Source: a virus. Taken from it: a stretch of DNA of 30,980 nucleotides. Below the pieces are notes generated by a model. That model did not search any database. It was given only the letters and a program-made list of their open reading frames with translations, and was not told the DNA's origin. The position numbers and the translations under genes were made by a program. The stretch spans positions 1 to 30,980 of the IMG/VR virus record IMGVR_UViG_3300010396_000084. One strand, written 5' to 3'. Of this stretch, positions 1 through 29,834 are shown one piece after another. How positions within the stretch are numbered: the stretch's first letter is position 1; each line of letters begins with the position of its first letter.

Positions 1-96
1 GAATCACAGGAACGCAGGCCACGCCAGCCGCGCGGACAAGGGACGCCGGCACAAGTCGAAACCGGCGCATTCGAGGACGACGACATTCCGTTCTAG
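1..96 (+). CDS. ssb: Single-stranded DNA-binding protein, C-terminal end (partial)
   Basis: Only the last 31 codons are in the window. The frame is open from base 1 and ends at TAG 94-96. The protein end is a polar Gln/Arg/Gly/Pro-rich linker followed by an acidic tip, FEDDDIPF. An acidic tail ending DDDIPF is the hallmark of bacterial and phage SSB, where it binds partner proteins of replication and recombination. The OB fold lies upstream of the window, so the identification rests on the tail alone. SSB genes are common in phage early and recombination modules, which fixes the context of the cassette genes that follow. The stop codon lies inside the first attC-like element. Confidence 0.8.
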   Translation, partial: ESQERRPRQPRGQGTPAQVETGAFEDDDIPF

Positions 97-145
97 CCCA
101 CTGGATCGCATAGCGCAGCGCGTCCGCTGGAATGAGTAGTTAGCC
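91..145 (-). other. attC-like site 1, truncated half-site next to ssb
   Basis: On the minus strand it starts with core GGCTAAC (139-145), then a normal left half (TACTC spacer, then TTCCAGCGGACG). The matching right half expected to end in GTTAG is missing: instead the sequence runs into TTCTAGC, which holds the ssb stop codon. Only a short weak pairing remains (CCACTGGA at 98-105 against TCCGCTGG). It looks like half an attC fused to the end of ssb. It could be a degenerate site, or a non-attC acceptor site. Confidence 0.5.
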
Positions 146-160
146 TGAAAAGGAACAACG

Positions 161-400
161 ATGAACCCGATAGCACGATACAAGCGGTGGAAGCTCTGGC
201 GCGATGCAGCGAAAGCATGGCGTGCTGCCGGACTTGGAACGATGCGATATGTCTGGCACGTGGGTGGCGCGCGCATTGAGTTCAGCGCGCCTGACGCGAA
301 AGACCTTCGAGACTTGCAAAAGGTTGTGAGCCATTTTGCTGATGTGCTGCAAGAACTACTTGATCGCAAGATTACCGTAGAGCCAGATTTCGAAGGCTAA
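161..400 (+). CDS. Cassette ORF A, 79-residue protein of unknown function
   Basis: Start ATG 161 has an AAGGAA ribosome site 7 bases upstream and lies 16 bases after the attC1 core; the TAA stop (398-400) lies inside the core of attC2. The protein is basic at the start (RYKRWKLWRDAAKAWR, a predicted amphipathic helix), followed by a short strand-rich part (MRYVWHVGGARIEFSAP) and a C-terminal helix rich in Leu and acidic residues. It has no signal peptide, membrane segment or Cys cluster. I do not recognise a family. Position in the phage early region suggests an accessory role during infection, but that is inference. Confidence 0.7.
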   Translation: MNPIARYKRWKLWRDAAKAWRAAGLGTMRYVWHVGGARIEFSAPDAKDLRDLQKVVSHFADVLQELLDRKITVEPDFEG

Positions 401-455
401 CGGTTGAGTTGTGCGGCGCGAGCTTGCGAGCGTCCGAACGAACGAATGGTTAGAC
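395..455 (-). other. attC site 2
   Basis: Plus-strand ends are GGCTAAC (395-401) and GTTAGAC (449-455), 61 bases. The inner arms pair as GTTGTGCGGCG (408-418) against the reverse of CGTCCGAACGAAC (431-443), with two extra bases in the right arm and one mismatch. Read on the minus strand it has the usual order: GTCTAAC, CATTC, left arm with extra bases, loop, right arm, GTTAGCC. The stop codon of the preceding ORF is in its first core. Confidence 0.75.
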
Positions 456-468
456 CGAGGACACGACG

Positions 469-753
469 ATGAGCGAACAACCGAAGTGCGAAGTGTGCGG
501 TGAGCCGATGCCGGAAGGCGAGCAGATGTTTAAGTTTCACGGTTATAGCGGACCATGCCCGAAGCCACCGCTGCCGAAGCCTCAATGGGTGGTGCATGTA
601 ATCGGGCCTGACGACGTGCACCCTCAGCCTGACGAATTGACCGCGCTGCGCGAAGCAAACGCCCTGAACAAGGCGCTCGCACGGCGCGAACGGAGCGAGC
701 TCGATCCATTTTGCATGGCGGTTGTAAAAGACCGAACAACCGAAGAGGTCTAA
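469..753 (+). CDS. Cassette ORF B, small protein with a putative Cys/His metal site
   Basis: 94 residues; ATG 469 follows a GAGGAC ribosome site and the attC2 core by 13 bases; TAA (751-753) is part of the attC3 core GTCTAAC. Near the N terminus C7 and C10 (CEVC), H24 and C30 form a CxxC-x13-H-x5-C pattern that could bind zinc, followed by a Pro-rich stretch (PCPKPPLPKP). The C-terminal third is charged and probably helical. The family is not recognised. A small zinc-binding protein could contact nucleic acid or another protein; the sequence does not say which. Confidence 0.72.
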   Translation: MSEQPKCEVCGEPMPEGEQMFKFHGYSGPCPKPPLPKPQWVVHVIGPDDVHPQPDELTALREANALNKALARRERSELDPFCMAVVKDRTTEEV

Positions 754-813
754 CGGCCAAGGTAACCGGAGCGAGCCCGCAGGGTGAGCTTCCGGTTGAC
801 CGCAGAGTTAGGC
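748..813 (-). other. attC site 3
   Basis: Ends are GTCTAAC (748-754) and GTTAGGC (807-813), both perfect matches to the integron core consensus. The inner arms GGTAACCGGA and TCCGGTTGACC pair fully except for one unpaired base in the right arm. Total 66 bases. This is one of the clearest sites in the array. Confidence 0.9.
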
Positions 814-836
814 GTAACCAACGAGAGAGACGAACG

Positions 837-1046
837 ATGGATAAGCAAATTCGATATGCGAAGCGGGTTGTTTTTAGCACCGACGACTCTGCCGTACCTG
901 TACAGATCGTTTGGCCTGATCCGCTTAGCGCGGAGGAGATTCAAGACCTTGAGGAGTTTTTGCAACTGTGGATGCGGGGGCTGAAGCGGCGGCTCGCTCA
1001 TGTGCCAGCGCCGCCAATTACAGAGCCCGCCCCCAATGAAGCCTAA
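837..1046 (+). CDS. Cassette ORF C, 69-residue protein of unknown function
   Basis: ATG 837 was chosen because it is the first start after the attC3 core and has a GAGAGACG ribosome-site-like stretch upstream; the frame is open further left (to 711), but that would run through attC3. TAA (1044-1046) lies in the attC4 core. The protein begins with a basic segment, then a strand (PVQIVWPDP) and an acidic-to-basic helix (SAEEIQDLEEFLQLWMRGL), and ends in a Pro/Ala-rich tail. It has no membrane segment or signal peptide, and I do not recognise a family. The strand then Pro then acidic helix order loosely resembles ORF A, but too weakly to claim homology. Confidence 0.68.
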   Translation: MDKQIRYAKRVVFSTDDSAVPVQIVWPDPLSAEEIQDLEEFLQLWMRGLKRRLAHVPAPPITEPAPNEA

Positions 1047-1097
1047 CACCCGAATTTAGTTGCGCGAGTGAGCGTCAACTGAGATGAGAAGTTAAAA
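1041..1097 (-). other. attC site 4
   Basis: Plus-strand left core GCCTAAC (1041-1047, perfect) and right core GTTAAAA (1091-1097, last base off consensus). Arms ATTTAGTTGCGC and GCGTCAACTGAGAT pair with extra bases only in the right arm. 57 bases. On the minus strand the end reads AAATTCGGGTGTTAGGC, a typical attC right end. Confidence 0.85.
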
Positions 1098-1113
1098 CTC
1101 ACGAGGTGGAGAG

Positions 1114-1362
1114 ATGGACAAACCCACAAAAGTAACGATGGAATGCACTGCCGACGGCTACGCAATCTCGGTGTTTGCCGGCGAACGCTGCATAGCCAAA
1201 CGCAGCTCGACAATGAAAAGCGTGGGCGAAGCGAAAGACGACCAGAAAGCAGACTGGTACGAGACGCTGCCCGATTTCGATGAGCTGGCCGAAGAATTGG
1301 ATGGGCTGACGTTCGGGCCGTTCGGGATTTCCGGCGAGTTGCGAAAGCTGCGTGAGTTCTAA
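1114..1362 (+). CDS. Cassette ORF D, 82-residue acidic protein of unknown function
   Basis: ATG 1114 follows GAGGTGGAGAG, a strong ribosome site, 16 bases after the attC4 core; TAA (1360-1362) lies in the attC5 core. The N-terminal half looks strand-rich (VTMECTADGYAISVFAGER), with basic residues after it. The C-terminal half is strongly acidic (LPDFDELAEELDG) and ends in a helix. Small acidic proteins are common among phage inhibitors of host enzymes, some of them DNA mimics, but nothing here proves that role. No known family was recognised. Confidence 0.7.
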   Translation: MDKPTKVTMECTADGYAISVFAGERCIAKRSSTMKSVGEAKDDQKADWYETLPDFDELAEELDGLTFGPFGISGELRKLREF

Positions 1363-1445
1363 CACCTGAATTGAGCCGGCGCGCAGCCGGACACACAACT
1401 GCCGGGCAGCTACGAAGCGCGCTCGGCTCCAATGAGTTGTTATAC
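1357..1445 (-). other. attC site 5
   Basis: Ends TTCTAAC (1357-1363) and GTTATAC (1439-1445), 89 bases, the longest of the set. Arms ATTGAGCCGGCGCGC and GCGCGCTCGGCTCCAAT pair over 15 bases with two unpaired bases, both in the right arm. A variable terminal part of about 30 bases lies between the arms. On the minus strand it ends TCAATTCAGGTGTTAG, very typical of attC. Confidence 0.9.
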
Positions 1446-1462
1446 GGCGACAGCGAGGAAAC

Positions 1463-2095
1463 ATGGCTGAGAAAGTGACAATCGGGAATGCGGAACTCTG
1501 GCACGGCGACTGCCGGGAAGTGCTGCCGCTTTTGCCGCGCGCCGACCTGATAGTGACAGACCCGCCATATGGAATTGGCTACGCCGCGAATCCGATTGTT
1601 GGCAAGGGGAAGAAAGCCAGCAATCACGAAGGTAAGGCATGGGATGACGAAGTGCCGCCAGCTTGGCTCTTTGGCTTGATGCAGGAGAAGGCGAGTCATC
1701 TTGTGATATGGGGTGGGAATTACTACGACCTGCCGCAAACGCGTGGCTGGATGTCATGGTTCAAGCCGGATGCACCCCCAAGCATGGGAAATTTTGAACT
1801 GGCGTGGACTTCATTTGATCGACCGGCCCGCCAGCTTTCCGTTTCGATCGGAGAAACCAACCCGGAGCGAGTTGGGCACCCAACGCAAAAGCCGCTGCGC
1901 CTAATCGAGTGGTGCGTCGGGTCAGTGCCAGGCGCGCAGACGTGCATTGATCCGTTCATGGGAAGCGGCACAACTGGCGTGGCCTGCGTCCGGCTTGGCT
2001 TGAAGTTTGTTGGGATTGAACGCGAGCGCAAGTATTTCGACATTGCTTGTCGCCGTATTGAGGATGAGCAGCGGCAATGCCGGTTAGCCGTATAA
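1463..2095 (+). CDS. Cassette ORF E: DNA methyltransferase, N6-adenine/N4-cytosine type (beta class)
   Basis: The 210-residue protein has catalytic motif IV DPPYGIGY (residues 33-40) before the S-adenosylmethionine motif I DPFMGSGTTG (163-172), the order seen in beta-class amino-methyltransferases (N6_N4_Mtase family). HPTQKP (139-144), typical of the family, precedes motif I, and VGIERERKYFDIACRRI follows it. It should transfer a methyl group to adenine N6 or cytosine N4 in DNA. No restriction enzyme is nearby, so it is probably an orphan phage enzyme that protects phage DNA from restriction or alters host regulation; specificity cannot be read. ATG 1463 follows GCGAGGAA, 17 bases after the attC5 core; TAA (2093-2095) is in the attC6 core. 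It is the only cassette ORF with a clear function and proves that plus is the coding strand. Confidence 0.93.
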   Translation: MAEKVTIGNAELWHGDCREVLPLLPRADLIVTDPPYGIGYAANPIVGKGKKASNHEGKAWDDEVPPAWLFGLMQEKASHLVIWGGNYYDLPQTRGWMSWFKPDAPPSMGNFELAWTSFDRPARQLSVSIGETNPERVGHPTQKPLRLIEWCVGSVPGAQTCIDPFMGSGTTGVACVRLGLKFVGIERERKYFDIACRRIEDEQRQCRLAV

Positions 2096-2149
2096 CACTT
2101 GAGTTAAGCCGGGTCACGGAGTGACCTCGGCTTGAACGAATTGTTAGCC
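2090..2149 (-). other. attC site 6
   Basis: Ends GTATAAC (2090-2096) and GTTAGCC (2143-2149), 60 bases. Arms GAGTTAAGCCG and CGGCTTGAACG pair with one extra base in the right arm; the loop is itself a small hairpin, GGTCACGGAGTGACC. Read on the minus strand (GGCTAAC, AATTC, GTTCAAGCCG ... CGGCTTAACTCAAG, GTTATAC), the L boxes match, as I remember it, the well-known attC of aadA1. This site fixes the polarity of the array. Confidence 0.93.
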
Positions 2150-2171
2150 ATCACATCACGGAAGGAGCGAA

Positions 2172-2372
2172 ATGGAATACATGGCAGCGCAGATGGACAG
2201 CCAGATTGAAGGCGCACAAAGCGAGAACGAGCGACTGCTGAGCGAGGCAGACGCGCTCCGCGAGATGGTCGGGTGGGCCTACGGAAAGCTGCACATGCAG
2301 AACTACAGCAAGCTGGACGATGCCTTGATGCTCGACAGGATGAAGCTGGTGTTGGAGTACGGGGTTTTGTGA
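2172..2372 (+). CDS. Cassette ORF F, 66-residue coiled-coil protein of unknown function
   Basis: ATG 2172 has GAAGGAG 6 bases upstream and lies 22 bases after the attC6 core. Its TGA stop (2370-2372) falls just before the attC7 core, unlike the TAA stops of the other cassettes. Residues 5-35 are a charged, Gln/Glu-rich helix with heptad-like leucines (SENERLLSEADALREMVGW), so a short coiled coil and dimer formation are likely. Proteins of this kind are frequent among small phage early genes. No enzyme motif is visible, and I do not recognise a family. Confidence 0.72.
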   Translation: MEYMAAQMDSQIEGAQSENERLLSEADALREMVGWAYGKLHMQNYSKLDDALMLDRMKLVLEYGVL

Positions 2373-2373
2373 C

Positions 2374-2443
2374 GGCTAACGTTGGAGGTAAGTCGTGAGA
2401 ACGAGCGCAGCGAGTGAGCATCGGCTTGACCGACTAGTTGGGC
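2374..2443 (-). other. attC site 7 (right edge of array)
   Basis: Ends GGCTAAC (2374-2380) and GTTGGGC (2437-2443), 70 bases. Arms GGTAAGTCG and CGGCTTGACC pair through one G-T pair and one extra base in the right arm. The inner part (GAGCGCAGCGAGTGAGC) holds smaller repeats. No further attC is seen to the right of it, so the array ends at or just after the next ORF. Confidence 0.88.
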
Positions 2444-2448
2444 GGCTA

Positions 2449-2628
2449 GTGCTGCGCTGCCCGAAGTGCGGCAAGCAGAAAACCACGAAGCGGCAACCAG
2501 AGGATTACCCGGAAGCCGTGCGGATGGAGATTGTTTGCCCGAAGTGCGACGACGGAGACTTCCACGAGCCGTTCTATTACGACGCAGATGGAACCCATAT
2601 AACCCGCGATCCTTCACCGGAGAAATGA
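2449..2628 (+). CDS. Small zinc-ribbon protein
   Basis: Two CPKC knuckles (C4/C7 and C30/C33 counted from GTG 2449) make a four-Cys zinc ribbon in a 59-residue protein. The frame is open left to GTG 2395, but that start lies inside attC7, so the ORF upstream of 2449 is attC sequence read by chance. GTG 2449, six bases after the attC7 core, gives a protein that starts directly with the ribbon; its ribosome site is weak. Zinc-ribbon proteins of this size are common in phage early regions and bind nucleic acid or act in transcription. It could be a further cassette gene lacking a closing attC, or the first resident phage gene. Confidence 0.62.
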   Translation: MLRCPKCGKQKTTKRQPEDYPEAVRMEIVCPKCDDGDFHEPFYYDADGTHITRDPSPEK

Positions 2629-2868
2629 ATGATGGGGACGAAAGAGACAATGATGCAACTTGCGCCGGACGTGCCATTCCCGTGGCGCCTTGGCGAAGGG
2701 ATAGATGCGCACCTCATCTTTGATGCGAAAGGCGACCCGATCGCGGAGTTCTACGGCCCAGCCAAAGAACGGGCGCAGGCAATGAGTGCAGTCGTTTGCG
2801 CCGTCAATACCTTGGCCGGCTACAGAGCAGAGATTGTGCCGCCCAACAACAATTCGACGGAGCGTTGA
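2629..2868 (+). CDS. Phage early protein of unknown function, 79 residues
   Basis: ATG 2629 follows the preceding TGA directly (TGAATGATG), with GGAG six bases before it; ATG 2632 is an alternative. The tight junction means translational coupling to the zinc-ribbon gene. The middle reads as strand-turn-strand-helix (AHLIFDAKGDPIAEFYGPAK, then a helix to AVVCAVNTLAGY), an arrangement seen in many small phage hypothetical proteins. No catalytic residues are recognisable. Soluble, with no signal peptide or membrane span. Confidence 0.72.
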   Translation: MMGTKETMMQLAPDVPFPWRLGEGIDAHLIFDAKGDPIAEFYGPAKERAQAMSAVVCAVNTLAGYRAEIVPPNNNSTER

Positions 2869-2877
2869 AGGTCTGCA

Positions 2878-3015
2878 ATGTATCCGCGCATTGATTCATA
2901 TCGCGCGGTGATCGATGGCCGCGAGTGGAAGGCAAGCGTGGGCTGGTCGCGCGTCCTGGACGGTCTGCGCCGCGCATTGCCGCGCTTGGCGAGTCCGAGA
3001 CATTTTGGAGAATGA
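2878..3015 (+). CDS. Small phage protein, 45 residues
   Basis: A short ORF from ATG 2878 to TGA 3013-3015 exactly fills the gap between two early genes. A GAAGG ribosome-like site lies 5 bases upstream, and its stop is one base from the next start. The product starts MYPRIDSYRAVIDGREWK and is basic, with Trp and Arg in the second half. The strand-turn-strand look of the first 20 residues resembles small phage proteins, but no family is recognised. Spacing and coupling are the main support. Confidence 0.5.
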   Translation: MYPRIDSYRAVIDGREWKASVGWSRVLDGLRRALPRLASPRHFGE

Positions 3016-3016
3016 T

Positions 3017-3451
3017 ATGGACAGTGAATTGGTGAAGGCTGAGCTGGACGATTTGCCGGCGCTACAGGCGATTGCATTTTTCGAGATGTATGTCGGCTGC
3101 GGTACTGAGCCGAAATTGCCGCCGCTGTTTGTCGAACATTTCCAGACCGTTGCCGAGAGTCACAAGCGCCTCTCCAGCCGCGTGAAGGAACTGGAGCGGG
3201 AGAATGCGGAGTTGCGCAACGACAAAACGCAACTAGACAAAGCGTGCCGTCAACACCTCACGCGAGCACTGGAGAACGGACAGGCAGCGCAACGCGCCGA
3301 GTCCGAATTGGCCGCGCTTCGCAAGAGGATTGCTGAGGCTCCGACCCACGTCGCCGAATGGACGCTGGCGTACGGCCTGACATTCAACGATGCGGACGGG
3401 ACGCTCGACGGCCATCGCGTCGCCCTGCTCGACATGGGGAAGGAGGGGTGA
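3017..3451 (+). CDS. Coiled-coil phage early protein, 144 residues
   Basis: ATG 3017 was chosen over the open frame further left (to 2915) because GGAG sits 6 bases upstream and the start follows the stop of the small gene before it. After an N-terminal domain rich in acidic and hydrophobic residues (about 1-45), residues 55-110 form a long coiled coil (SSRVKELERENAELRNDK and on). The C terminus (WTLAYGLTFNDADGTLDGH) looks like a short strand module found in other phage early proteins. Function unknown. It overlaps the next start by one base (TGATG), so the two genes are coupled. Confidence 0.72.
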   Translation: MDSELVKAELDDLPALQAIAFFEMYVGCGTEPKLPPLFVEHFQTVAESHKRLSSRVKELERENAELRNDKTQLDKACRQHLTRALENGQAAQRAESELAALRKRIAEAPTHVAEWTLAYGLTFNDADGTLDGHRVALLDMGKEG

Positions 3452-3633
3452 TGGATAACTACACGCGCGAGGACTTGGAGGATGACGTGCGCTGCGCTGC
3501 GTATCGGTTGAGAGAGTACATGCGAGCTGCTGCAATCATTCTCAAATGCTCGCCGCGATCCAAACGGGTTATCGCCATCGGCACGCCGGCAGAAATTCGC
3601 GCGCTGCTTGATGCGAAGGACAACGCGCAGTGA
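3451..3633 (+). CDS. Phage early protein of unknown function, 60 residues
   Basis: ATG 3451 overlaps the preceding stop (TGATG) and has a near-perfect ribosome site, AAGGAGGGG. The protein is mostly helical (TREDLEDDVRCAAYRLREY), with a basic middle (CSPRSKRVIAIG) and ends near DAKDNAQ. No motif is recognised. Tight coupling to genes on both sides (its stop overlaps the next GTG start) places it in the operon that ends with the integrase. Confidence 0.7.
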   Translation: MDNYTREDLEDDVRCAAYRLREYMRAAAIILKCSPRSKRVIAIGTPAEIRALLDAKDNAQ

Positions 3634-3932
3634 GCGAGCGCGATGACCCATGGCTGTCGCGTGTCGCGGTCGAGCACTTGACCGGCACTCGCTGGCGGCG
3701 GCTGCAATGCGAGCGCCTGCGCGCGATGGGCGTTCCGTTCAAGCCAAACGCCGTGGGGCTGCCGCTGGTGGAGGCGTCGCTGTTCTTGACGAACGAGCCC
3801 GTTCGCCTGCATCGTTCGCCGGATTGGGGGAAGGTCAAGCGTGGGAAGGCGGCGAAAGCACAACCGGCACCTGCCGCAGCGAATGATGATGCGGCGCGGC
3901 GCGTACTACCTTTTGGCCTACGCCGAGGGTAA
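3630..3932 (+). CDS. DUF4224-like protein, putative excisionase or integrase partner
   Basis: 100 residues from GTG 3630, overlapping the preceding stop. Residues 11-50 (EHLTGTRWRRLQCERLRAMG, then VPFKPN and a GLPLVEA segment) match the pattern of DUF4224: a LTG-x-R... helix, a W/C...L...GIPF turn and a G-x-P strand. Such small proteins are usually encoded directly before phage tyrosine integrases and are thought to bind DNA as directionality factors; that role is inference. The C-terminal Ala/Lys-rich tail overlaps the start of the integrase by 92 bases, which suggests tight coupling. Confidence 0.68.
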   Translation: MSERDDPWLSRVAVEHLTGTRWRRLQCERLRAMGVPFKPNAVGLPLVEASLFLTNEPVRLHRSPDWGKVKRGKAAKAQPAPAAANDDAARRVLPFGLRRG

Positions 3933-4809
3933 GCAGCGCTGGATACCGCTGGGCCGTGACTACTCCGAAGCCCTGCACAAATACGCGGAAGTCGAGCGCG
4001 GCGAGCCCGTGCCACTGCACACCGTTTCCGGACTGCTCTCGGCCTATATAGCCGACCGCACGCTCACGCTCTCCCCGAAAACCCTACTGGACTATCGGCT
4101 ACAGGCCGACCAACTGAACGCGGTGTTCGGCGATCTGCGGCTTGCGGACGTGCGCCGCCCGGATGTTGCCCGCTATTTGAGCCTGCGCGGGAATGTCGCC
4201 GGCAACCGTGAGCGGGATCTGTTTCGCGCCGCGTGGAACTGGTCGCTCAATTCAGGATTGACCGAAGCGTCGAACCCCATGGCGGGAATGCGCGTGCGCA
4301 ACCCAGAGGGCAAGCGCAAGGCGACGCTGGGATACGTGGAGGATGCCACCTTCCGTAAGCTGGACGAGCAGGCCAATCCGACGCTGCAGATGCTGCTGCG
4401 GTTTCTGTATCTGACCGGCATGCGGATCGGGGATGCACTGGCGCTGGACATCAGCGCAGGCGGCCAGGAAGGAATTGCGTGGCGTACCGGCAAGACTGGT
4501 CGGCCCATGCTGGTCGCCTGGTCGCCGGAATTGGAGCGCACGTGGCAGGCTGCCGCAAATGGCCGCGAGGTCGGGCCTTTGTTCGTGAACCGGAAGGGTA
4601 AGCGCTACAGCTTGGACGGCATCGAGACGATGTTCGCCAGACTGCGCAGGAAGGCCAAGGTGGCCGGCGTCACCCTGCACGGCATCCGCGCCAAGGCGGC
4701 AGACGACGTTGAACTGGCGCACGCTCAGGCGCTTCTAGGCCACGCCGATTCAGGGGTTACCCAACGCCACTATCGGCGCAAGGTGCGGGCGGTGAAGCCG
4801 ACGCGATAA
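3841..4809 (+). CDS. int: Phage tyrosine integrase (site-specific recombinase)
   Basis: 322 residues. Residues 1-45 (RRRKHNRHLPQRM then RRGAYYLLAYAEGKQRW) are a typical phage N-terminal arm-binding segment, which supports GTG 3841 rather than the ATGs at 3883. A core-binding SAM-like domain lies at about 60-150 and the catalytic domain after that: R195 (TGMRIGDAL), K218 (KTGRP), H280 and R283 (LHGIRAKA), H301 (LLGHAD) and nucleophile Y311 (RHYRR). It should integrate and excise the phage at a tRNA gene; the putative attP begins 62 bases after its stop. I see no sign of the extra helix region typical of integron IntI, so it should not act on the attC sites. Confidence 0.95.
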   Translation: MGRRRKHNRHLPQRMMMRRGAYYLLAYAEGKQRWIPLGRDYSEALHKYAEVERGEPVPLHTVSGLLSAYIADRTLTLSPKTLLDYRLQADQLNAVFGDLRLADVRRPDVARYLSLRGNVAGNRERDLFRAAWNWSLNSGLTEASNPMAGMRVRNPEGKRKATLGYVEDATFRKLDEQANPTLQMLLRFLYLTGMRIGDALALDISAGGQEGIAWRTGKTGRPMLVAWSPELERTWQAAANGREVGPLFVNRKGKRYSLDGIETMFARLRRKAKVAGVTLHGIRAKAADDVELAHAQALLGHADSGVTQRHYRRKVRAVKPTR

Positions 4810-18072: not shown

Positions 18073-18114
18073 GTCCACCCCTTACAGTGTAACCCCTTGA
18101 TGATCACCGGGCAG

Positions 18115-18139
18115 GACCGGAAGGGGTGGCCGGTCTTTT
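18115..18139. repeat. Inverted repeat between tube and chaperone genes
   Basis: GACCGG and CCGGTC, separated by 9 bases, followed on the plus strand by four T. It falls in the 100-base gap after the tube gene. On the late-gene (minus) strand no T run follows, so it is more likely an RNA processing or attenuation hairpin than a terminator. Confidence 0.4.
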
Positions 18140-18172
18140 CGGATTGCTCCTAGCCCAGCGAACTGTTTCCGA

Positions 18173-18630: not shown

Positions 18631-19956
18631 TTACGCGAACGCCACGGCGTCGAGGTTGAAGGTGATGGTCAGGAACCCGCTCTGGCCGGTGAACGTCGCG
18701 CTGAGGCCGTTGTAGATGCCGTTGGCGTAGTCGTTGGGCTGCTGCTGCGTGTAGGTGAAGAACGGGACCGCCGTGACCTCAATGGCGGAGGCGCAGCCGT
18801 AGGCGACCGCATTGCTCGCAATCTGCTGGGCCACTGCAAGCAGGGTGTTGATACCCGCTTGGTTGTAGAGCAGCGGCGGATTGGAGTTGGAACCGACGAT
18901 GATCGCCTCGGCAAGGGCCTGCTTCACCTGTATCCGGAAGTAGTCCACGCCATACCAGAACGCGGCCTGCTCGCCATCCATCGTGGTGCCCTTGAACAGC
19001 GTGGCGGTGGAGATTCCGCCCTCGGCTCCGGTCAGGATCAGGTTGCCGTAGGCAGTCAGCACTGTGTTGATCGTGCTGGTGTTGCCCTGCTGCGCCCACG
19101 GCGTGACCCCGAACAGGTAGCGGAAGGCCATCGGTGCCAAGGCATTGGCGGGTCCGGGGTTGTTCACCGTCCACTGATAGAACGGGGCCGCGCCCTGCAC
19201 TTCGGTGATTGCCGCCGTTGGGCTGGGAACGATTGCGAAAACCGCCTTGTTGTTGGCGTAGGCCGAGACGTGCGCAGACGTGGTGTTGATGAAGAAGTAC
19301 GTCTGCCCGGAAGGCGAATCGTGGTTGGCCGTCATCGTTTGTAGGCCAGCCGAGTCGGACGTATCCCATGCCGAGTCGATCAGGTAGGAATAGAACAACT
19401 GCGGGCTGGTGCTGTCATTGGTGATGAACGTACCAAGGGCCGTCACGGCCGCCGTCCATGTCGCTTGCTCACCCAATTCCAACACGTACAAACCGACCGC
19501 CGAGCCTTGGGCGAAAAACGTCTGCGCGGCGTTGCTCACGAAGGCTGAACCGGGAATGGTGTAAGTGCCCGGGACCGTCTCCGTGCCCGGATTGGAGGCC
19601 AAGGCGTAGGTGAAGGTATCGGTGCTGGTCACAGTAGCCACGTAGGTGCCGTTGTAAGCCGCCGGAGTCGCGCCTGAAATCGTGGTGAGGAAAGTCTCAC
19701 CCACTCCCAGGGACAAGACACCCGCCGTGGTGACGGTCACCAATGAAGCCGCCCAAGCAAGGGAGGTGATGGTGGCGGGCGCGGGCAATAGCGCCTGCAC
19801 CGCCGAGAGATTCGAGCAATACTGATAGCCGTTCGCTGAAAGCGTCGTACCACCCGCCGAGACAATCGCGCCGCTCTGTTGCAACTGCGAAACGGAAGGA
19901 GCGGTCGTGACTTGGGTGTTGACGTTGACAATCGTCGGCGTGATGGTGGTCGCCAT
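18631..19956 (-). CDS. Tail sheath protein with inserted beta domain
   Basis: 441 residues. The C-terminal half (YDIAF-like absent; PFFTYTQQQPNDYANGIYNG, then TITFNLDAVAF) and the middle (WYGVDYFRIQVKQALAEAII) match a DUF3383-like sheath family of small myoviruses. Residues about 62-137 form a separate beta domain (TSLAWAASLVTVTTAGVLS, TISGATPAAYNGTYVATVT) also found in the gpJ gene here. The first 45 residues carry the N-terminal arm that links neighbouring subunits. The sheath contracts to drive the tube through the envelope. Start ATG 19956 follows GGAGACG. Confidence 0.85.
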   Translation of the reverse strand: MATTITPTIVNVNTQVTTAPSVSQLQQSGAIVSAGGTTLSANGYQYCSNLSAVQALLPAPATITSLAWAASLVTVTTAGVLSLGVGETFLTTISGATPAAYNGTYVATVTSTDTFTYALASNPGTETVPGTYTIPGSAFVSNAAQTFFAQGSAVGLYVLELGEQATWTAAVTALGTFITNDSTSPQLFYSYLIDSAWDTSDSAGLQTMTANHDSPSGQTYFFINTTSAHVSAYANNKAVFAIVPSPTAAITEVQGAAPFYQWTVNNPGPANALAPMAFRYLFGVTPWAQQGNTSTINTVLTAYGNLILTGAEGGISTATLFKGTTMDGEQAAFWYGVDYFRIQVKQALAEAIIVGSNSNPPLLYNQAGINTLLAVAQQIASNAVAYGCASAIEVTAVPFFTYTQQQPNDYANGIYNGLSATFTGQSGFLTITFNLDAVAFA

Positions 19957-26042: not shown

Positions 26043-26863
26043 GCCGCCACCCTCGTCTCTTCCAGTGCGTACCGCCCCTTGGCCGTCAGCATGTATTCGG
26101 GCAGTTCTCGCAGGCTGTGCAGGTACACGTACCAGCAGCGGCAGAACGGCTCCTCACCCACGCGCTGGATCTCGTCGGTATAGCCATCGCCCTTGTTCAG
26201 CAGGCCGCGCTGCATGGCCCAGCTATTGCGGATCGCAAACACCTTGCCATCGCGCGCTAGATGCTCAGGACGCGCGTCGTAGTGCTTGTCGTGCCGCCCG
26301 TGCGAGCGCCACACCGCAGCAATCGCCCCGGTCTGGATCGCCAGCACTTCGTTGATGGATGCGACCAACTTGTGGCCTTGGTCGATCTGAACCCGGCGCA
26401 CCTCGAACGGAATGCCCTTCACGGCCTTGCCGATGTCGGCCTTGGTTTCGGCCTTGTCCACCACCTTGGAGCCGCCAGAGGGAACCGATGAGGCCCAGCC
26501 CGAGAACCGCTGCAGGGTCTTTTCGATCGCCTGGTCGCGGTTCAACTTGATCAGGTTGGACGAGGCCAGAATCCTCCGGTCAAGCTCGGCGCGAAGCTGC
26601 GGCTTGATCTGGTTCACCCGGTAGGGTTGCAGACCCAACTGCATCTTTTGCAGCTTCGCAGGCTTCAGCGCGCGCTCGAAAGCCGCATGCATCGCCGCCG
26701 CGATCTGTGTATCAATGTCCAAATCCTTCGGGGCCGAGAGCATCGCCGCATAGCGCAGCCTGCGTAGCCATTCATGCAAGCGTGCGATGTCGTCGAAGCC
26801 ATAGGCCGTCATGTCCCGGACGGCATCTGCTAGCACGTCCGCAAATCTGGGCTTAGATGTCAT
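26039..26863 (-). CDS. Head morphogenesis protein (SPP1 gp7 / Mu gpF-like)
   Basis: 274 residues from ATG 26863, overlapping the portal gene end; the open frame to 26935 lies inside the portal gene. The N-terminal part is helical (PRFADVLADAVRDMTAYGFD). The C-terminal domain has the gpF/gp7 pattern: IQTGAIAAVWRSHGRHDKHY, then DARPEHLARDGKVFAIRNSW, and a final Cys/His pair near FCRCWYVYLH. Such proteins enter the prohead with the portal. Its last bases overlap the Nudix-DUF2213 start (GTGA). Confidence 0.82.
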   Translation of the reverse strand: MTSKPRFADVLADAVRDMTAYGFDDIARLHEWLRRLRYAAMLSAPKDLDIDTQIAAAMHAAFERALKPAKLQKMQLGLQPYRVNQIKPQLRAELDRRILASSNLIKLNRDQAIEKTLQRFSGWASSVPSGGSKVVDKAETKADIGKAVKGIPFEVRRVQIDQGHKLVASINEVLAIQTGAIAAVWRSHGRHDKHYDARPEHLARDGKVFAIRNSWAMQRGLLNKGDGYTDEIQRVGEEPFCRCWYVYLHSLRELPEYMLTAKGRYALEETRVAA

Positions 26864-28304
26864 ACGCCGCCCGTGTCTCCGGCTCTTTTTCTGCAGGAGC
26901 AGGGGGCACGTACTCGGCCATCGCGTCCACGTCAATTTCCAGCGGACTCGACACCAGCATCTTGCGGGCGTTCATCGTGTCCGCCAGCCAAGCCGCAATC
27001 GTGGCCTTGTTCAGTGGGTCGGCCACCGGCAGCAGCATTTCCGCTACGCCAATCGCCGACTCCATGATCTTGGCGTCGCGCTCGACTGCCTTGGAATCAG
27101 GTTCAACGAGCAGGTTCGGCCACTCCGCAGAGAATGCGTTCTTCCACTCGTAGAATGCCGTCTGGTAGGGCTTGTCTGCGTACTCGGGATACTTGCGCTG
27201 AATGGTTTTGTAGAACTCAGGCGTCCATGCGCGGTGCATGACAATCACATCGAAATAGTCATACAGCGGCTGCATTTCCACGCGTACGCCGTCGATGTAG
27301 CTGGCAATGGACTTGGCGTCCTCCGTGCCCTCGCCAAACCCTTCCGCCAGAGTTTCCTGATTGATCATGGAGGCGGGCATATTTGCCGCCGTCGCGATGT
27401 TCTTCAGGATGTTGTTGCGAGCGAACTCGGCGGCATCCCGCAGGTTCTTGAGATCCACCGACTGCAAGTCTTCATCCACCCCCAGCGACAACACATTGCC
27501 GGTTGCGGCATCGTTGATCGTGTTGCGCTTGGCGGCGAAAAAAACCTTGGTTAGGTTGTCGATGATTGAAGATGGCGACTTGAGCTTGGCGACCAGCAGC
27601 GCCGCCTTCTTCGTCACTACATCGTCCGTGATCATGGACTGGATGTAGGACTTCAGCGGGTACAGCGCACGCTGGTAAACCGAACGGCCTACGAACCCGA
27701 AGGCCGAGGTCGTCCACTGGATGTAGATTGGCTCCTCGTTCATCACCACCACCGCGCGGGAGGGGTGATAGAACTGCGCGCCGGACCGGATCGACTTGGG
27801 CTTCTGGAAGTCCGGGGCGTTCGGGTCTTGCTCCAACACCAAGGAACCCGCCGTGTTCAGCGGGTCCAGGATGTTGAAGTACAGGTCCTGCTCATGCAGG
27901 GTCGTGAGGTCCAGAGGCTTATCCGGATCAGCCTCGCGCGTCCCCACGACAATCGAACCAATGCCGTAGATGCGCGATACCCGCATGGTGTTGTTGATTA
28001 GCCGATCCGCTCCGATCTTGCCGAGCTTGCGCCACTCGCGCCCGTAAACCTCGATCAGATCCTTTTCCGGCGCGTCCGGGATCGTGATCGTGCGCGGCAG
28101 GGATTGAGCCAGTCCGACTGGCCCATCCACCATCTTTGCGCCCAGCGGGTGATAGCTGTAGAGCGCCTTGCACACCTGATAGCTGGGGTCCGTTCCGGGC
28201 ACGATGTCGCCTTGGTTCAGAATCCACATCAGCTCGGACGATCCGCCCCCGGTCGCGGTCAGTGAAGCATTGCCGCTGTCAGGGTCATTTCCGAACGATG
28301 CCAT
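26853..28304 (-). CDS. Portal protein (DUF1073-like)
   Basis: 483 residues from ATG 28304, overlapping the terminase stop by one base (TGATG); TTG 28307 is the other option. Segments such as QGDIVPGTDPSYQVCKALYS, RVSRIYGIGSIVVGTREADP, and LPRTITIPDAPEKDLIEVYG match the DUF1073 portal group, and position after the large terminase fits. The ring of 12 copies is the DNA gate of the head. The Pro/Ala/Glu-rich last 40 residues (EYVPPAPAEKEPETRAAYD) are a flexible tail. Normal length. Confidence 0.88.
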   Translation of the reverse strand: MASFGNDPDSGNASLTATGGGSSELMWILNQGDIVPGTDPSYQVCKALYSYHPLGAKMVDGPVGLAQSLPRTITIPDAPEKDLIEVYGREWRKLGKIGADRLINNTMRVSRIYGIGSIVVGTREADPDKPLDLTTLHEQDLYFNILDPLNTAGSLVLEQDPNAPDFQKPKSIRSGAQFYHPSRAVVVMNEEPIYIQWTTSAFGFVGRSVYQRALYPLKSYIQSMITDDVVTKKAALLVAKLKSPSSIIDNLTKVFFAAKRNTINDAATGNVLSLGVDEDLQSVDLKNLRDAAEFARNNILKNIATAANMPASMINQETLAEGFGEGTEDAKSIASYIDGVRVEMQPLYDYFDVIVMHRAWTPEFYKTIQRKYPEYADKPYQTAFYEWKNAFSAEWPNLLVEPDSKAVERDAKIMESAIGVAEMLLPVADPLNKATIAAWLADTMNARKMLVSSPLEIDVDAMAEYVPPAPAEKEPETRAAYDI

Positions 28305-29575
28305 CAATAGCCCTCAGCGTTGCCCAGTCCGATTGCGATGCCATAGGTGAAGCAGTCCAGCAGGTCCATCTGGTGAGCGTTCTTTTCGCCCACGCGGAAT
28401 CCGCACACCTGAGAGATCAGGTGATTGCGGACTTGCCCGCGATAGTTGGTCGTCTTGTCGTAGGCTTCCGGGGTAATCTTTACTTCTCCCCGATACACGT
28501 AGCCCGACACGTTCAGCGCCCGCCCGTCCTTGCCCAGAGCGGTCAATTCCGCCGGCAACTCCTTGGCAGGCATTCCATGCTTGGCGGCGTGCTGCAACAG
28601 GGTGATGCCGCTCGCCTTGTCCTCGATCCATGGACCCGCCCATCCATGCCGCGCCTGGTACTTCGCGGCCAATTCCTCCAGCCTGCGATGCACGCTCGGT
28701 AACCAGTCCGCGAGCAGGTTGGACGTGATTTGCAACACGTCCCAATCCAGGATTACCAGCGGATGTCCGCTCACCCGGTTGCGGGCGAAGTACACCACCG
28801 CCGTGCCGTCGTGTTCCTTGCCGTCCTTGAGCGCCGTATCTATGACCGCGTACACCACATCGGTTCGCAGCGGCATCTGGCAGGGCTTGCCATCAACCAG
28901 TAGCGAGTCCTCGCTGAAGAAGGCAGAACCCTTCCAGTCCACGAACTCCGCCAGATATTCCTGCTGGTACACCAGCGGCGGGTATTCGTCTTTGAGCTTT
29001 GCTACCGCCTCAGGATCAAGCGTCGGATTGCTCGACGTGGGAGCGTGGAACTCTTGCCATCCCAGCGTCTTGTCCGTGCATATCTGATAGAACCAATTCT
29101 CAGGATCGGCCCCGTTCGGGGTGCTCATCGCCCATGCGAAGCCTTGATAATCCAGAAGGGTCGGCGCGATTGCTCGCTGCCAGACATCCCTCATGTCGTC
29201 CCCGGCGAAAGCTCCTTCATCAATCAGCACGCCCTTGTATTTTCGGGATCGGCCGGCGCGCGGATTGTTCAGTGTCCAGAAGTCAATACGCCCACCCGTC
29301 GTAAGCCGGATCACTCCCTCGGTCTTGTTGGAGTGCTCCGTGATCGGCCTGAGCGTCTCCTCAAGCTCCCGGTAGGTTTCCGAGATGATCTTGTAGTCGG
29401 GTGCGAAGATACCGAATGGCCATCCCTTGGCGGCCGTCTGCGCGGCTATCGTGCCGCCCAGCAGGGTCTTGCCCCACCTGCGCCCGCATCTCAGTGCATT
29501 AAACCTTGACCGCTGATTCCACGCTTTAAGCTGCCCCTCATGCGGAGGGGTGAGGACTATCCGATGCTCCGTCAT
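28304..29575 (-). CDS. terL: Terminase large subunit
   Basis: 423 residues from ATG 29575 (GGGGG 8 bases upstream); the frame opens to TTG 29602, a poorer start. ATPase: Walker A CGRRWGKT (30-37), Walker B GVLIDE (115-120), coupling motif STPNG (151-155). Nuclease: D246 (VYAVIDTALK), E318-D319 (WIEDKASG) and D404/D407 (MDLLDCFTYG). It packages phage DNA using ATP and cuts it. All active residues are present. Overlaps the small subunit gene end, and its stop overlaps the portal start. Confidence 0.95.
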   Translation of the reverse strand: MTEHRIVLTPPHEGQLKAWNQRSRFNALRCGRRWGKTLLGGTIAAQTAAKGWPFGIFAPDYKIISETYRELEETLRPITEHSNKTEGVIRLTTGGRIDFWTLNNPRAGRSRKYKGVLIDEGAFAGDDMRDVWQRAIAPTLLDYQGFAWAMSTPNGADPENWFYQICTDKTLGWQEFHAPTSSNPTLDPEAVAKLKDEYPPLVYQQEYLAEFVDWKGSAFFSEDSLLVDGKPCQMPLRTDVVYAVIDTALKDGKEHDGTAVVYFARNRVSGHPLVILDWDVLQITSNLLADWLPSVHRRLEELAAKYQARHGWAGPWIEDKASGITLLQHAAKHGMPAKELPAELTALGKDGRALNVSGYVYRGEVKITPEAYDKTTNYRGQVRNHLISQVCGFRVGEKNAHQMDLLDCFTYGIAIGLGNAEGY

Positions 29576-29834
29576 CGGGTAGACCCCCGTGAATATGGAC
29601 AATGACGCCGCCAGTCTTCGTGGCGTCTTCGTTTGCTTGCAGCGGGATCAATCTTCCGACTAGACCCATAAAGGCGACCGGAGTATCCAGCGCCCGCGCC
29701 TTCAGATATGCCACACCACCAGCCTCATGCAGCGCCTCGGTGATCATGTCCTTGACCTGCGCGGTCAGTTTGTTGGGCTGACCTTTCTTTCGGCCACCCC
29801 TACGTTCGCCGGGTTTTGATCCTCTCCCAGCCAT
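29538..29834 (-). CDS. Terminase small subunit-like DNA-binding protein
   Basis: 98 residues, start ATG 29834. The first 25 residues (GRGSKPGERRGGRKKGQPNK) are very basic, as in the DUF5681 group and several small terminases. The helical middle (LTAQVKDMITEALHEAGGVA) may be the DNA-recognition part, and VAFMGLVGRLIPLQ the oligomer part. Position before the large subunit supports the role: recognising the packaging start and recruiting the large subunit. The end (DDGASDSPHPSA) overlaps the terL start. Small for a terminase subunit. Confidence 0.72.
   Translation of the reverse strand: MAGRGSKPGERRGGRKKGQPNKLTAQVKDMITEALHEAGGVAYLKARALDTPVAFMGLVGRLIPLQANEDATKTGGVIVHIHGGLPDDGASDSPHPSA

Follow-up and report, generated by a model that had tools for sequence, protein, structure and literature searches.

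Can a bacteriophage hold its early genes as integron cassettes? Integrons are generally regarded as a bacterial (and archaeal) system, and clusters of their attC recombination sites in phages as occasional strays. The question is raised by positions 91-2443 of the IMG/VR virus record IMGVR_UViG_3300010396_000084, where an initial annotation had described short open reading frames (ORFs) separated by attC sites, next to a gene for a single-strand DNA-binding protein (ssb). The DNA in question, a single linear contig with a length of 30,980 bases, is referred to as the window and represents an incomplete genome. Our analysis supports, with a probability of about 0.88, the interpretation that this part of a temperate myophage genome is an integron-type cassette array, located beside ssb among the early genes, with each ORF forming one cassette and the integron integrase (IntI) supplied in trans. 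The window represents a variant of the integron cassette array that is adapted to phages and inverted in polarity. Here, as in dozens of other viruses, the genes have an orientation opposite to that in bacterial cassettes, suggesting a version of integron-based gene exchange that is specific to phages.

attC Sites of the Window

The window was scanned without filters using a covariance model (R1). Its training set comprised 19 attC sites, taken from plasmid-borne class 1 integrons and from one IntI-bearing array, and contained no window sequence. All six sites of the initial annotation were recovered at the coordinates it had given, all on the plus strand, with E values ranging from 3e-16 to 5e-3, and its proposal of integron cassettes in a phage early region, which it had made dependent on such matches, has thus withstood this examination. 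The best match outside these sites had an E value of 0.65, apart from a weaker reverse reading of one of them. The sites, together with a half-site preceding them, are as follows:

94-145, plus: half-site bounding the first cassette; GTTAGCC (139-145) is an intact right box, and the left box is degenerate and overlaps the ssb stop
395-455, plus (bottom strand): attC 1; boxes GGCTAAC / GTTAGAC; 37.2 bits, E 7e-8
748-813, plus: attC 2; boxes GTCTAAC / GTTAGGC; 37.0 bits, E 8e-8
1041-1097, plus: attC 3, weak; boxes GCCTAAC / GTTAAAA; 19.4 bits, E 0.005
1357-1445, plus: attC 4, with a long loop; boxes TTCTAAC / GTTATAC; 46.2 bits, E 2e-10
2090-2149, plus: attC 5, aadA-type; boxes GTATAAC / GTTAGCC; 67.5 bits, E 3e-16
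2374-2443, plus: attC 6, the last site; boxes GGCTAAC / GTTGGGC; 44.7 bits, E 6e-10

Five sites score at least 37 bits, and an independent pattern detector found five of the six. In the R1 alignments, the extrahelical bases are confined to one arm, as had been claimed, and this is the right arm. The half-site had been proposed as well; its right box is real and perfectly reverse-complementary to the left box of attC 1, whereas its left box is degenerate, and R1 gives no match at 94-145. attC 3, weak on its own, has a perfect left box and a right box matching at six of seven positions when compared across the neighbouring ORFs. attC 5 shares 84-85% identity over 60 bases with the attC site of the aadA resistance cassette found on thousands of plasmids, and attC 6 occupies the end of the array where other phages carry intI. 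A search of the window with Rfam returned no attC match. Across 150 viral sites, stem covariation amounted to 478 two-sided changes compared with 145 after shuffling, and to a score of 0.41 compared with 0.12, in an alignment that was itself fitted to this structure. Duplication of a single site was considered as an origin of the array and rejected, because the sites differ in both loop and boxes.

Integrase-less clusters of attC sites (CALINs) are recognized by at least two clustered sites with no IntI nearby. Here, six R1 matches lie within 2.1 kb, five of them with E values of at most 8e-8, and only a phage tyrosine integrase is found in the neighbourhood of the array on this incomplete contig. 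The intI and attI of a complete integron are absent from the window; intI is present in the viral arrays G077, G055, and others.

Box Signature and Cassettes

In integrons, the two 7-bp boxes of one cassette flank its gene, and each site combines boxes derived from two different cassettes. The window bears this signature: five of the six box pairs taken across an ORF, including that of the half-site, are perfect and the remaining one matches at six of seven positions, while none of the six pairs within sites is perfect. The across-ORF pairs are GTTAGCC/GGCTAAC, GTTAGAC/GTCTAAC, GTTAGGC/GCCTAAC, GTTAAAA/TTCTAAC (6 of 7), GTTATAC/GTATAAC, and GTTAGCC/GGCTAAC. In bulk counts, where a pair was called perfect if it matched in the four variable positions, viral arrays gave 139 perfect pairs of 174 across ORFs (80%) and 26 of 216 within sites (12%). 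Bacterial integrons gave 47 of 68 (69%) and 12 of 82 (15%), respectively, and random pairing of boxes gave 11%. Insertion of separate circular units is the only explanation of this pattern known to us. Terminators or ordinary intergenic hairpins were also considered and rejected, as they leave the box pattern unexplained.

Six ORFs lie between the sites:

161-400, plus: cassette 1, 79 aa, no assigned function; its TAA stop (398-400) immediately precedes the cut point of the next site
469-753, plus: cassette 2, 94 aa, with an N-terminal CxxC motif
837-1046, plus: cassette 3, 69 aa, no assigned function
1114-1362, plus: cassette 4, 82 aa, no assigned function
1463-2095, plus: cassette 5, 210 aa, orphan DNA methyltransferase (N6_N4_Mtase), a recurrent cassette gene in viral arrays
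2172-2372, plus: cassette 6, 66 aa, no assigned function

Behind a complete site, the ORF begins after 14-24 nt, mostly with a Shine-Dalgarno-like motif, and in five of the six (cassettes 1-5) the TAA stop is built by the left box of the next site. A search with cassette 2 matched only its N-terminal domain, which also occurs in a cassette of a bacterial chromosomal integron (L338) and in two viral contigs.

Inverted Polarity of Cassette Genes

In the class 1 integrons used for training, genes lie opposite to the strand read by R1, and R1 therefore reads the bottom strand of attC. The right-arm position of the extra bases likewise identifies the plus strand of the window as the attC bottom strand. 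As R1 reads the plus strand and the ORFs, whose coding strand is fixed by methyltransferase homology, are also on the plus strand, every ORF of the array is inverted relative to bacterial cassettes. The initial annotation had overlooked this inversion. The bacterial-type orientation is found for no ORF of the array; orientation is not a defining feature of attC, because a minority of bacterial cassettes are inverted too.

For comparison, 33 viral records were examined alongside ten Burkholderiales integrons fetched beside IntI plus locus L068, using the same model for both and assigning the strand of inter-site ORFs by codon scoring, since greedy longest-ORF calling misassigns strand in these GC-rich contigs. 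The viral intervals comprised 173 inverted, 10 standard, and 4 undecided cases, whereas the 73 bacterial intervals comprised 65 standard, 6 inverted, and 2 undecided ones (Fisher p 3e-42, with intervals of one array not being independent and many viral records having been ascertained via the methyltransferase). Viral arrays found by pattern alone show the same inverted polarity. As read from site and codon orientation, inverted ORF polarity is the rule in viruses. Inversion of a whole bacterial array was rejected as its source, because the relation of ORF to attC would stay unchanged. Four single viral contigs (L276, L279, L256, and L274) carry two inverted attC arrays each, on both strands and in opposite directions.

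Distribution, Probable Exchange, and Cargo

A 16-base stretch of an attC arm occurs as 36 stretches in viral contigs, and those contigs with at least two sites comprised ten inverted arrays, two arrays of bacterial polarity, and one IntI-bearing array (L068/L071). The methyltransferase of the window has 57 relatives in viral contigs, most of them within arrays and with nearly all sites on the strand of the gene; attC was present in 34 of the 38 methyltransferase contigs searched whole, and the methyltransferase cassette recurs in approximately 40 viral arrays. The bearers of arrays are unrelated phages, as their terminases (phrog_2, _9, and _15) and portals (phrog_21, _146, and _30703) differ; a P22-like phage is also among them. 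A multi-cassette array in a phage is therefore not the exceptional arrangement that had been supposed, given that such arrays are widespread in IMG/VR and that phage attC clusters were published in 2023 (PMC9892861).

The expectation that other phages would show the same type of junction with different cassettes was borne out. A gp157-like gene stands upstream of the array in MW202573 and in contig L279, and SSB-like genes with tails ...SIPF* stand directly upstream in viral contigs L275 and L277, as ssb does in the window, in each case with other cassettes behind. The proposed exchange of single genes also finds support where cassette homology ends at an attC box. The genomes of two unrelated phages (G006 and G010) have one stretch in common, 470 bp at 81% identity, and no other match in the 40 kb of each that were compared. 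This stretch spans a Dam methyltransferase gene and ends in both at the last base before the attC box. The same Dam gene occurs in L104, L105, L106/L107, and L108 with an identical junction (...GTGGG|box) and different sites behind. These comparisons between genomes indicate exchange of single cassettes between phages.

Among 148 inter-site ORFs, most of which have no Pfam match, the cargo includes 16 N6_N4 methyltransferases, 3 Dam methyltransferases, and 2 Lar restriction-alleviation proteins, as well as one each of D12 methyltransferase, MazG, dATP/dGTP pyrophosphohydrolase, and Tad3. The last, a Thoeris inhibitor of the Tad3 type, lies as a cassette between attC sites on the minus strand of a viral contig (L281:10630-11067). 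The gene names suggest that cassette cargo may act against host defence.

One bacterial locus, L338 (Burkholderiales genome G226, contig C5, reverse strand 247-3771), is a chromosomal integron with IntI in which standard and inverted cassettes are mixed. The N-terminal 36 residues of one of its inverted cassettes are 72% identical to those of cassette 2 of the window, and such a mixed array is where phage and bacterial cassette pools may meet.

Integron Integrases of Viruses

In agreement with the initial annotation, no integron integrase was found in the window: its tyrosine recombinase (3841-4809) has no match to the integron-integrase profile TIGR02249 and lies far below every curated NCBIfam cut-off. 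IntI was sought in the 38 methyltransferase contigs. An intact protein of 328 aa (421 bits) with the catalytic residues and the IntI-specific insert was found in G077, and a second one, truncated at the contig's end, in G055; structural genes of phages are present on both contigs. A scan with the single G077 sequence matched only itself, and a scan with an IntI alignment yielded 80 viral loci. Arrays beside viral IntI contained 39 inverted, 2 standard, and 3 undecided intervals. Searching the IntI-bearing contigs for a terminase with PF03237 gave no match; PHROG profiles did find terminases and confirmed phage genes on eight IntI-array contigs.

In inverted phage arrays, intI lies at the 3' end. 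The geometry of array, attC bottom strand, and intI is the bacterial one, and the cassette genes alone are reversed, reading towards intI. In a tree of 110 integrases, some with long branches, 21 viral rows form one virus-only IntI clade (support 99/94), which holds 12 of the 14 IntIs of inverted arrays. The other two fall among bacterial IntIs (L362) and apart (L405), showing that the inverted layout also occurs with other integrases. Further viral IntI-like proteins (L397-L399, L407, L408, and L415-L417) form deep, separate branches of the tree; no attC was found near those searched with a model trained on other sites, and these proteins may use a different site.

IntI exceeded the cut-off in 114 of 300 genomes of the Burkholderiales, the order of Paraburkholderia, which makes a host supply of IntI plausible for the phage of the window. 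The initial annotation's suggestion of a host-supplied integrase is thus reasonable, but the host need not be the source, as many phages with inverted arrays carry their own IntI.

Proposed Mechanism and Alternative Explanations

In the proposed arrangement, a cassette consists of an attC site followed by its ORF, whose TAA stop is formed by the end of the left box of the next site, so that the cut point RYYYAA^C closes the gene (TAA in cassettes 1-5). The coding strand is the attC bottom strand, the one that integron integrases bind when it is folded as single-stranded DNA. IntI acting in trans, whether from the host, a co-infecting phage, or the missing part of the genome, would cut out and insert single cassettes. 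Bacterial cassettes are read from the Pc promoter at attI; those of the phage would be co-transcribed from an upstream phage promoter, most with their own ribosome-binding site. Other phages possess the full system, their arrays leading up to a phage-specific intI that lies on the array's own strand, and the cargo (methyltransferases, Dam, Lar, and a Tad3) would provide an exchangeable set of counter-defence and other early genes.

A broader proposal, which we consider likely, is that phages own a class of integron, comprising a virus-only IntI clade and a large pool of inverted cassettes with counter-defence genes, in which the array is co-directional with intI and both belong to a single early operon. 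This inversion of the genes would separate the phage pool from the bacterial one, and the window would be a member that has lost intI or never had it. If so, the gene of a phage cassette placed behind the Pc promoter of a bacterium would lie antisense to it, and vice versa.

Several observations weigh against the interpretation of the region as a cassette array served in trans. No IntI was found in its 31 kb, although the contig is incomplete. Neither an excised circle nor an insertion event was seen, exchange being read from genome comparisons. The nearest structural relatives of the phage showed no convincing or detectable attC in the parts examined, so exchange is not demonstrable at the window's own locus, and no close relative with an alternative array was found. 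In addition, the upstream attC body tended to travel with the methyltransferase ORF (rho 0.19, p 0.12) and the downstream one did not (rho -0.07), a trend in the expected direction that is not significant. An alternative is a fossil array, built by IntI in an ancestor and now fixed and vertically inherited in this lineage. The lack of intI and the degenerate state of the half-site and attC 3 favour such a history, but only one of the six box pairs is imperfect, five sites reach 37 bits or more, and host IntI is common in the likely host order, which together render it unlikely.

Accidental capture (or mis-assembly) of a piece of a bacterial chromosomal integron, now inert, appears very improbable. 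Burkholderiales chromosomes do often hold integrons with similar attC sites, and L338 even has a few inverted cassettes, one related to cassette 2 of the window. However, bacterial arrays overwhelmingly have the other polarity (65 versus 6), phage early genes and an integrase follow the array in one contig, and about 30 viral records whose terminases and portals are unrelated show the inverted layout as well. Less probable still is that the hairpins are RNA elements of an early operon, such as processing sites, weak terminators, or translational insulators, with genes moving by homologous recombination. They lie between genes of the same direction, at a constant spacing of about 13-30 nt upstream of most start codons, as would suit this role, and the plus strand would be the RNA. 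Yet an RNA hairpin does not require boxes that match across ORFs and only randomly within sites, a pattern seen at the level of real integrons; in addition, box sequences and extrahelical bases are as expected of IntI sites, and intact IntI lies beside the array in such phages. A cassette array served in trans accounts best for the locus.

The Phage and Its Neighbouring Genes

The phage of the window is a temperate myophage, with terminase, portal, tail sheath, baseplate, and tyrosine integrase all in one contig. The relevant features are:

1-96, plus: probable single-strand DNA-binding protein gene, 3' end, cut by the contig end; tail ...FEDDDIPF*, stop at 94-96
2395-2628, plus: zinc-ribbon ORF downstream of the array, with its start inside attC 6
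3841-4809, plus: tyrosine integrase of a temperate phage, not an integron integrase, by profile comparison
18631-19956: tail sheath, a myophage marker
26853-28307: portal, a myophage marker
28304-29602, minus: terminase large subunit, a myophage marker

Its host is probably a member of the Burkholderiales, because the nearest portal relatives among bacterial genomes sit in Paraburkholderia phenazinium (62%) and Caballeronia calidae (58%). The first 12 kb gave no megablast match to phages, and a search with the tyrosine integrase found a single distant, unrelated locus. The zinc-ribbon ORF may be a seventh cassette whose far site was lost; several ORFs of other arrays also start inside an attC site. 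At 18093-18160 on the minus strand, beside the minus-strand block of tail genes, there is an Rfam int-alpA match (36.0 bits; gathering score 35.8).

Significance and Comparison with Known Systems

The inverted arrays in unrelated phages, together with a phage integrase lineage and a cargo of putative counter-defence genes, would amount to a system by which phages exchange one gene at a time. As most of the small ORFs have no match, such arrays are a place to seek anti-defence genes. They also make the role of attC polarity testable, with the same sites accompanied by genes in both directions in two kinds of genome.

Phage attC clusters lacking an integrase have been described before. Qi et al. 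(2023, PMC9892861) reported 17 CALINs in 10,705 phage genomes, including MW202573, TJE1, P12002L, and PH101, and found that IntI1 recombined five of six phage attC sites tested. They also described complete integrons in three temperate phages (from Vibrio anguillarum, Escherichia coli, and Shewanella), which do not constitute a phage IntI clade, and noted divergent directions in one phage; no consistent inversion of ORFs relative to attC is mentioned. A literature search, with preprints and most subscription papers outside its scope, found no description of a phage IntI clade or of inverted phage cassettes. What appears to be new is the inversion of polarity, a clade of phage IntIs, and the wide occurrence of such arrays; priority is not claimed.

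Like the published phage CALINs, the window holds an integrase-less attC array with small ORFs and an orphan methyltransferase; MW202573 has the same inverted layout, whereas TJE1 has bacterial polarity. Phage morons and mosaic early-region genes resemble it in being small early genes, often without assigned function, orphan methyltransferases, and anti-restriction genes that vary between relatives, but they lack a site-specific recombination site per gene, which every gene of the window array possesses. With class 1 and sedentary chromosomal integrons, phage arrays share the attC architecture, boxes matched across the ORF, and an array upstream of intI with the attC bottom strand and intI on the same strand, although the window has neither attI nor intI. 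The direction of the cassette genes differs: in bacteria they point away from intI, as seen in 65 of 73 inter-site intervals, whereas in phages they point to it.

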